From assembly GCA_035559535.1 (NCBI GenBank), contig DATMBG010000012.1:186001-250000 (forward strand): DNA of 64,000 bases, read 5' to 3'. This DNA comes from Candidatus Limnocylindrales bacterium (GTDB lineage: Bacteria > Moduliflexota > Moduliflexia > Moduliflexales > JAUQPW01). This document shows positions 46,476 to 49,663 of the stretch, piece after piece. Position numbers and translations under genes: made by a program. The notes under the pieces were generated by a model. It had not been told where the DNA came from, did no database searches, and saw only the letters and a program-made list of their open reading frames with translations. Every line of letters starts with the position of its first letter. Within the stretch, counting starts at the first letter, position 1.

Positions 46476-48257
<1,782 letters not shown>

Positions 48258-48263
<6 letters not shown>

Positions 48264-48986
48264 ACCCCGAAGTCTTTTTATAACTTCCTTCAAGTCCTCG
48301 GGTGTATCGACTCCAATGGATTCATACTCAGTTTCAATGACTTTAATTTTAAAACCGTTTTCCAAAGCTCGCAATTGTTCAAGTTCTTCAGCCTGCTCCA
48401 GAAAGGTCGGTTGAAGTGAGGCGAACTTTAAGATGAATTCCCTGCGATATGCATATAAGCCGATATGTCGATAATGAACCCTATATTCTTCTCTTCGAAA
48501 ATAAGGAATGGGAGAGCGAGAAAAATAAAGAGCCATATCGTTAAGGTCCGTTACCACTTTTACCACATGAGGGTTTTTAAGCTCCTCGAAGCTCTTAATC
48601 TTATGCTTGAGGGTCCCCATCGGGATTTCGGGATCTTCCAGTAGAGGTCGTACAACCTGATCAATCATATTCGGTTCGATTAAAGGTTCATCTCCTTGAA
48701 CATTGATGAAGATATCCGAAGGATCTTCACGGGCAACTTCAGCGAGACGATCGGTCCCAGACCGATGGGTTTTAGATGTCATAATGGCTTCCCCCTTAAA
48801 GTTTAAAACAACTTTCAAGATGCGTTCATCGTCCGTTGCAACAACAACCCGCTGGGGTAAGGAAGCCTTCTGGACCCTTTCATACACGTGTTGAATCATC
48901 GGCTTACCGCAAATATCGGCCAGAACCTTTCCAGGAAACCGGGATGAATGATATCTCGCTGGAATAACGGCAGTAATTTTTTTCAT
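48258..48986 (-). CDS. kdsB: 3-deoxy-manno-octulosonate cytidylyltransferase
   Basis: A 242-residue CMP-KDO synthetase activating KDO for LPS inner core. [19 protein letters not shown] is the nucleotide motif, VATDDERI and [10 protein letters not shown] are the metal site, and [21 protein letters not shown] is the KDO-binding stretch. pyrG follows and supplies its CTP substrate. Confidence 0.95.
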
Positions 48987-49083: not shown

Positions 49084-49110
49084 GTAGGGACGACCGGCCG
49101 GTCGCCCGTA
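49084..49110. repeat. GTAGGGGCG-family palindrome
   Basis: GTAGGGACGACCGG faces CCGGTCGCCCGTA with two mismatches, including the recurrent outer G/G. It lies alone in noncoding sequence upstream of kdsB. Confidence 0.6.
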
Positions 49111-49184
49111 TTTAATTATTTTAAAAATTATAGGGTTTATAATCCTCTAAGTCAAGAATAAAAGCTCGGAGAGTAACTATAACA

Positions 49185-49464
49185 ATTTAGTAGGTGTCAC
49201 TTTTTCTGTCTGAACCCCCCATCCCCCCTCCCTTACAAGGGCAGGTTTTTTGGGCCTAACCCCTCCGACTCCCCTTCCCTCGTAGAGAAGGGGAGAGTTG
49301 GGACTCAGGTTATCCCCAAGTTCCCCCTTCCCGGCGCAGGAAGGGGGTTAGGTTAGAAAAAACCTACCCCTAAAAGCCCCCCTCCAGGGGGGACTGACAC
49401 AGAGTTGCTGCTGCTGAATCCCCCTTGGAGGGGCAGAGGGTGTTTCTTTTTCCACCTACTAAAT
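49185..49464. mobile_element. MITE-like element with 12-bp terminal inverted repeats
   Basis: A 280-base noncoding segment bounded by ATTTAGTAGGTG (49185-49196) and CACCTACTAAAT (49453-49464), a perfect 12-bp inverted repeat. Inside are several C-rich hairpins (CCCTTACAAGGG, CCCCTTCCCTCGTAGAGAAGGGG, CCCCCTTCC...GGAAGGGGG, CCCCCCTCCAGGGGGG). There is no ORF and no obvious target-site duplication. It could be a non-autonomous transposon or an assembly of palindromic repeats. Confidence 0.5.
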
Positions 49465-49499
49465 GGATACGGATACGATCGGAGAGAGGGGTGTTAATT

Positions 49500-49541
49500 T
49501 ACCATTGTACGGGTTAGCGGCCGCTAACCCGTACAATGGTA
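49500..49541. repeat. 42-bp perfect palindrome
   Basis: 21-base arms match 21/21 around 49520/49521; the core is GTTAGCGG|CCGCTAAC. It lies between the MITE-like element and the 3' end of the SRPBCC gene and could act as a terminator for that gene. Both strands give short open frames across it, which I take as artefacts. Confidence 0.75.
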
Positions 49542-49663
49542 GATCATTCCCCTTGTATGGCCCCGGCGAGGCAATCTGTTTAGAGCAGGGAAAACAAAAG
49601 GATCTTCGGTATCCATTTAACGGACACCCCTGCGGCCTGGAGAAATAAGAAGCAAGAAGGCGC

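Follow-up and report, generated by a model that had tools for sequence, protein, structure and literature searches.

Is the coding-free, hairpin-rich segment at 49185-49464 a mobile element or a hub of several palindromic repeats? It lies in the window, by which we mean the whole stretch of 64,000 nucleotides that was analysed. An earlier note, made from the letters alone, had proposed a single 280-bp MITE-like element with perfect 12-bp terminal inverted repeats. Our analysis points to two nested elements. The outer one, designated family A, is very probably a non-autonomous DNA transposon (MITE) that carries a later-inserted element of a second family, designated B; A would be moved in trans, and its core would evolve by template switching. 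We assign A to the MITEs because of its 24-bp inverted ends, 9-bp target duplications, coding-free interior, intergenic copies, and pairs of filled and empty sites.

Composition and limits of the element

The 280-bp segment was compared with the genome of the window (G000; 5.6 Mb, 58 contigs, assembly 95.8% complete). The comparison gave 65 matches, with 40 of 170 candidates scored, and these formed two sets of copies. One set matched segment positions 1-47 and 193-280, and the other matched approximately 46-201. As the two sets cover different parts of the segment, the segment is a composite. A single 280-bp element was rejected because A copies without the inner element exist; the segment belongs instead to a 150-bp MITE of family A that holds a 145-bp MITE of the unrelated family B.

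The family A element with its insert occupies 49173-49476 on the forward strand (304 bp, or 150 bp without B and one 9-bp repeat). Insert-free copies occur elsewhere, and the orthologous site in a sister species is empty. The terminal inverted repeats are 24 bp long and imperfect. The left repeat, GTAACTATAACAATTTAGTAGGTG (49173-49196, forward strand), matches the genome-wide end pattern exactly, and the right repeat, GTATCCGTATCCATTTAGTAGGTG (49453-49476, reverse strand), belongs to the same pattern. The end has two parts, GTAWCYRTAWC followed by ATTTAGTAGGTG; copies begin like GTAACTATAACAATTTAGTAGGTG and finish like CACCTACTAAATGGATACGGATAC, and the A-type end can also be written GTAWCYRTAWCMATTT. 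The perfect 12-bp repeats of the earlier note are present, as ATTTAGTAGGTG at 49185-49196 and its reverse complement at 49453-49464. They are not the limits of the element, being the inner half of ends that reach outward by another 12 bp, to 49173 on the left and 49476 on the right. Directly outside these ends is a 9-bp target duplication with one mismatch (8/9), GCTCGGAGA at 49164-49172 and GATCGGAGA at 49477-49485.

The interior is coding-free, as proposed: it contains no open reading frame (ORF) of 60 aa or longer, and one ORF begins at 49459, within the right end. The C-rich/G-rich hairpins were likewise confirmed. The predicted RNA fold of 49173-49476 has an energy of -124.1 kcal/mol, compared with a shuffle mean of -104.8 (z -3.9; none of 100 shuffles as low). 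The core hairpin loop is located at 49394-49418 (forward strand) in the orientation designated F relative to the ends. An Rfam search returned nine matches with E values of 1 or lower, and none of them attained the gathering score of its family.

Copies of family A and their target duplications

When only the window was considered, the 11-bp end gave three matches with at most one mismatch against 1.0 expected, which is not striking (7 of 100 shuffles reached three). In G000, TTTAGTAGGTG occurred 24 + 28 times, compared with 6 + 4 for a reversed control pattern, and the 24-bp A end was matched 59 + 53 times with at most three mismatches, compared with 0 + 0 for the control. Further copies with the same ends, for which the earlier note had recommended a search, were found genome-wide. 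The outcome that the note had named as refuting its reading, a lack of other copies with these termini, was therefore not observed.

We examined 66 distinct two-ended A copies, 42 from G000 and 24 from the sister species (G001). The 9-bp target duplication was perfect in 30 copies, agreed at eight or more of the nine bases in 41, and agreed at seven or fewer in 25. Overall, the flanking 9-mers matched at 462 of 594 bases, while shuffles gave a mean of 171 and a maximum of 209 (2000 shuffles). Duplication lengths of 5, 7, 8, and 10 bp had lower overall scores than 9 bp, and a perfect 8-bp duplication fit instead in seven copies, six of them from the sister species.

The copies are intergenic and have A+T-rich flanks. 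None of the 60 testable A insertions interrupted an ORF of at least 120 aa, compared with 1322 of 3000 positions drawn at random from the stretches concerned; for this test the flanks were joined with one target copy kept, six of the 66 copies were short of flank, and the ORFs were mechanical, not annotated genes. Being palindromic, intergenic, and of high copy number, A also resembles the REP-like elements moved by a RAYT (Y1) transposase. HUH/Y1 enzymes are not known to make target duplications. REP elements are recognised by having none, and the clear 9-bp duplications of A therefore make such an origin extremely improbable.

A search of 97 genomes for A-type ends with at most two mismatches found them in 2, that of the window and the one other genome of its genus; the control pattern had one match in one further genome. 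Exact matches in a GTDB-based collection, which may omit the window's genome, comprised 33 stretches, all from one record set, JAUQPW01. In each of two genomes from the same order, the gene region was matched once, and A and B had no match.

Some A copies are larger. A subfamily with an extra end segment of 60-70 bp (GTAACTGTAACAATTTCTTACGAAAATCG...) occurs in both species (L165:4303-4561, L218:1248-1492, L065:1427-1643, and L159:5200-5417). Large A copies also share a further hairpin repeat with ends like AGGCGCCAGGATAAG / CTTATCCTGGCGCCT (L204:1093-1524, L264:4057-4464, L021:1176-1524, and L146:7512-7817). Given this shared repeat, nesting of short elements seems to be common in the genus.

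Empty and shared sites in the sister species

The search for empty sites in relatives, also recommended by the earlier note, gave a clean result at the window locus. In the orthologous stretch of G001, AAAAGCTTGGAGA directly joins TAGTGGTATTAATTTA, and the target is present as the single copy GCTTGGAGA; the window reads GCTCGGAGA, the element, and GATCGGAGA. A second clean empty site was obtained by comparing the G000 insertion L083 with L148 of G001. These empty sites in the sister species are strong evidence of past movement.

The alternative offered by the earlier note was a hub of palindromic repeats, which would have been built without transposition, through recombination or slippage during replication. 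The interior is indeed a hairpin mosaic, additional palindromic modules occur in the larger A copies, and the core is not always the same in orthologous copies. However, 9-bp duplications lie at the exact ends in 30 of the 66 copies, and because of the two empty sites with a single target copy we regard this origin as very unlikely. The idea of a hub is right insofar as A holds family B; A itself is a mobile element. A has several of the features by which bacterial MITEs are recognised: it is short and lacks coding capacity, and it has shared inverted ends, a duplication of constant length, and empty sites. The suggestion of a non-autonomous mobile element is thus borne out by many copies with the same ends, by their 9-bp target duplications, and by the empty sites.

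Other A insertions are common to both species (L158/L204, L165/L064, L154/L267, L176/L201, and L150/L073) or partly so (L172/L251). The insertion at L176/L201 is reduced in G000, and that at L150/L073 is truncated in G001 by the end of a contig. The comparison L200/L172 was uninformative. In view of the shared insertions and the empty sites, transposition of A seems to predate the split of the two species in some cases and to follow it in others. The window copy probably arrived after the split, since the site is empty in the sister species; exact loss there is less likely.

Insertion site upstream of a kdsB-like gene

The window copy lies just upstream of a cell-envelope gene on the reverse strand (48258-48986) that encodes a CTP_transf_3 protein (PF02348, E 1.1e-61). 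The name kdsB is suggested by the protein family and the neighbouring pyrG. A sigma-70-like promoter sequence, TTGACT-17-TATAAT (49127-49155, reverse strand, 11/12 match), faces this gene, and the target duplication of A is 8 bp from its -35 box. Shuffles of the region yield 0.8 such sites on average, and a promoter function is therefore suggested by conservation and position: the promoter-like site is kept in the sister species in the alignment. We consider it the putative kdsB promoter. Inserted 8 bp from such a promoter-like sequence, the element illustrates how upstream regions can be reshaped by mobile DNA of this type.

Several other repeats are present near this site. A near-perfect, loopless 48-bp palindrome, ACCATTGTACGGGTTAGCGG / CCGCTAACCCGTACAATGGT, follows soon after A (49497-49544). 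Its sequence differs in the sister species, and its arm matches only two other places in the genome, with three mismatches. A GC-rich palindrome, GACGACCGGCCGGTCGCCC, lies upstream of kdsB (49085-49110) and is missing from the orthologous stretch of the sister species. Between the kdsB-like gene and pyrG (48047-48265) there is a GGGAGTATGGGAGTGTGGG-type repeat, with a similar repeat in the sister species; its translation lengthens CTP synthase at the N-terminus by what is apparently a spurious stretch.

The nested family B element

Family B occupies 49232-49376 (145 bp, forward strand) in the left hairpin arm of A. Its inverted ends, CTTACAAGGGCAGGTTTTTT / CTTTTAGGGGTAGGTTTTTT, are 80% alike over 20 bp. 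The element is bracketed by two identical copies of CCCCCCTCC, at 49223-49231 and 49377-49385. A copies without B run through this site and carry the 9-bp stretch once, so that one repeat has become two in the window. Inverted ends, copies, and a target duplication, the features of a MITE, are all present in B.

With 40 of 98 candidates scored, B had 46 matching pieces in G000, the window copy included. The next best match among these scored candidates (G000:C36) was 99% identical over all 145 bp, and B therefore probably moved recently. The family is also present in the sister species.

The length of the B target repeat is less clearly defined. Among 26 two-ended B rows (23 places), the strongest repeat signal was at 11 bp (0.521 versus 0.286; maximum of 500 shuffles, 0.374), lengths of 7, 8, 12, 13, and 14 bp were slightly above their shuffles, and in the window copy the repeat is 9 bp long. 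Because B is flanked by simple, C-rich sequence, the count of repeat lengths is blurred: on each side, 11 of 26 flanks are at least 75% purine or pyrimidine, compared with 11% of random 20-mers and with 6 and 8 of 66 for A. Judged by these flanks, B seems to insert preferentially into simple C-rich DNA, for example into the arms of other repeats.

The hairpin core of family A

We analysed the core in 44 of the 66 A copies (28 from G000 and 16 from G001); the copies were picked by their core-flanking spacers, and the other 22 were dropped as unparsable or because their cores were short. The arms of the same copy paired at 388 of 484 cells, compared with a mean of 329 and a maximum of 361 when arms were dealt among the 44 copies in 5000 shuffles, which leave the relatedness between copies in place. 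In a smaller test of ten copies with strict anchors, the own-arm total was above the shuffled mean, and 45 of 5000 shuffles were as high. The seven outermost core pairs contained 10 two-sided Watson-Crick changes (nine in G000 and one in G001), against 1.8 expected if the two sides changed independently, and 33 one-sided changes. Of the ten two-sided changes, three are each seen in only one copy at the pair concerned, and seven recur in two or three copies; the copies sharing the recurrent changes are not grouped by a tree of the ends, which is itself weakly supported.

The loop occurs in both orientations: among the 32 copies with a recognisable loop, it was F in 13 and R in 19. Such a loop is lacking in the other 12 of the 44. 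In the orthologous pair L064/L165, the direction of the loop is constant relative to the flanks and the asymmetric spacers have switched sides, a pattern that may have arisen by replacement with another copy. In the pair L073/L150, the ends are common and the cores differ. Mapped on the tree of ends, orientation changed eight times, compared with a shuffled mean of approximately 10.5. Only 2 of the 29 branches are well supported, and because the tree is poorly resolved we claim no number of flips.

Polymerase template switching between inverted repeats is described as causing both homogenisation of the arms and inversion of the spacer (PMC8604942; PMC8794818). We regard it as the most likely origin of the paired changes in the arms of A and of its loop flips. 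The main rival is selection on the hairpin, which would also give paired changes. If A is mobile and its core is maintained as an RNA or DNA structure, for instance as a processed stem-loop or a foldback bound by the transposase, the arms would stay paired through two-sided changes, the fold would be stronger than in shuffles, and the 33 one-sided changes would be mismatches that persist for a time. Effects on mRNA stability have been proposed for the stem-loops of ERIC and NEMIS (PMC2229807). However, three of the ten two-sided changes are confined to single copies and the other seven to copies that the weakly supported tree leaves ungrouped, flips of the loop are what template switching predicts (PMC8604942), and no Rfam family was matched at its gathering score. 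Selection in place of template switching is therefore doubtful in our judgement.

The two orientations would also be expected if the core were a third mobile hairpin that had inserted either way inside A and had not flipped in place. The loop is missing in 10 of the 16 parsed copies of the sister species, and several of these, including one of the pair L073/L150, carry another palindrome. Against this, the same spacers enclose the core in all 44 parsed copies, which were selected by those spacers, and no copy lacking the core but carrying a doubled target came up in passing. We consider a third element unlikely.

Template switching leads to a broader reading, which we put forward tentatively: A may be a multi-copy natural recorder of template switching, and its perfect hairpin may be a mutational by-product and not a function. 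The core would be rewritten in place, with arm copied onto arm, the loop flipped, and cores exchanged even between orthologs of the two species, while the outer ends remain fixed and mobile. A core present in many copies could serve as a system for telling template switching from selection on hairpins.

Search for the transposase

For movement in trans, a DDE transposase would bind the two-part end (GTAWCYRTAWC, then ATTTAGTAGGTG), excise A, and insert it at cuts staggered by 9 bp. The window copy would have been inserted just upstream of the promoter of the kdsB-like gene after the species split, and the 145-bp B element would later have entered its left arm. The core hairpin would then evolve in place, template switching copying arm onto arm and turning the loop over.

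The earlier note had also suggested looking for a transposase with matching ends, and none was established. No autonomous A-ended element was found among 83 places compared and 53 further places. No facing pair of A ends more than 432 bp apart had a duplication (searched to 6.5 kb within loci of mostly 3-8 kb), and in each of eight facing end combinations 0.45-12 kb apart, one end had a nearer partner (100 of 112 places listed). The 11 larger A copies examined contained only short open stretches, the longest being 96 codons.

G000 had no match to PF01609 (DDE_Tnp_1), PF03050 (IS66), or PF00872 (Mutator/IS256), despite its more than one hundred A ends. The matches in G001 were seven, two, and two, respectively, with one PF00872 match below the family cut-off. 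The DDE_Tnp_1 and IS66 loci of G001 were rejected as partners, as A or B ends do not stand out there. Among the 11 transposase loci of G001, an exact A end was present only at L294, beside a decayed gene. A 119-aa piece of this gene matched PF00872 (E 8.7e-8, over the cut-off) and NF033543 (E 8.4e-10, below the cut-off), and the preceding 194-aa piece matched no transposase profile. No left A end and no duplication were found at L294, and neither piece had a match in plasmids or the other loci examined. The right flank of the A end at L294 is orthologous to an ordinary A insertion of G000 (89% over 1133 bp), and therefore a rearrangement may have juxtaposed the gene and the A end. The decayed IS256/Mutator-like transposase as the partner of A is only a lead.

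The 9-bp stagger would fit the IS256/Mutator superfamily best, and this fit is not specific to it. Duplications of approximately 9 bp also occur in the IS4-, IS5-like, and ISLre2 families. Those of the Mutator superfamily are given as 8-9 bp (PMC3169594).

Comparison with known systems

A literature search found no published report of family A; subscription papers and ISfinder were outside its scope. Text matches to TTTAGTAGGTG included none in mobile-element papers, judged by title.

MITEAba12 of Acinetobacter is similar to A in that it is small and coding-free, has imperfect inverted ends and 9-bp duplications, and is thought to be mobilised in trans (PMC6382973). It differs in being 113 bp long and AT-rich, with 16-bp ends (GGCTTTGTTG...) like those of the resident ISAba12 and its relatives (PMC6382973), whereas A has different ends, a C/G-rich hairpin core, and no parent IS found. 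The Tm1 Mutator/foldback family of root-knot nematodes also has MITE-like members and a reported nested insertion; its duplications measure 8-10 bp, most commonly 9 bp, and its two outer ends carry asymmetric motifs (PMC3169594). In contrast to A, it is eukaryotic and larger, with tandemly repetitive ends and an identified Mutator-like transposase (PMC3169594). The resemblance between Tm1 and A is one of working only, and we claim no membership.

Like A, the ERIC, RUP, and Correia (NEMIS) repeats of bacteria are short, have inverted ends, and form strong stem-loops (PMC2229807). RUP has TA targets and is tied to IS630, and most of the repeats tabulated in that source end in TA (PMC2229807), whereas A has a 9-bp duplication and begins with GTA. 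A and B are new families of a known kind, the MITEs. These two mini-transposon families are linked and come from a lineage that has not been cultured, in a genome without matches to three common transposase families.
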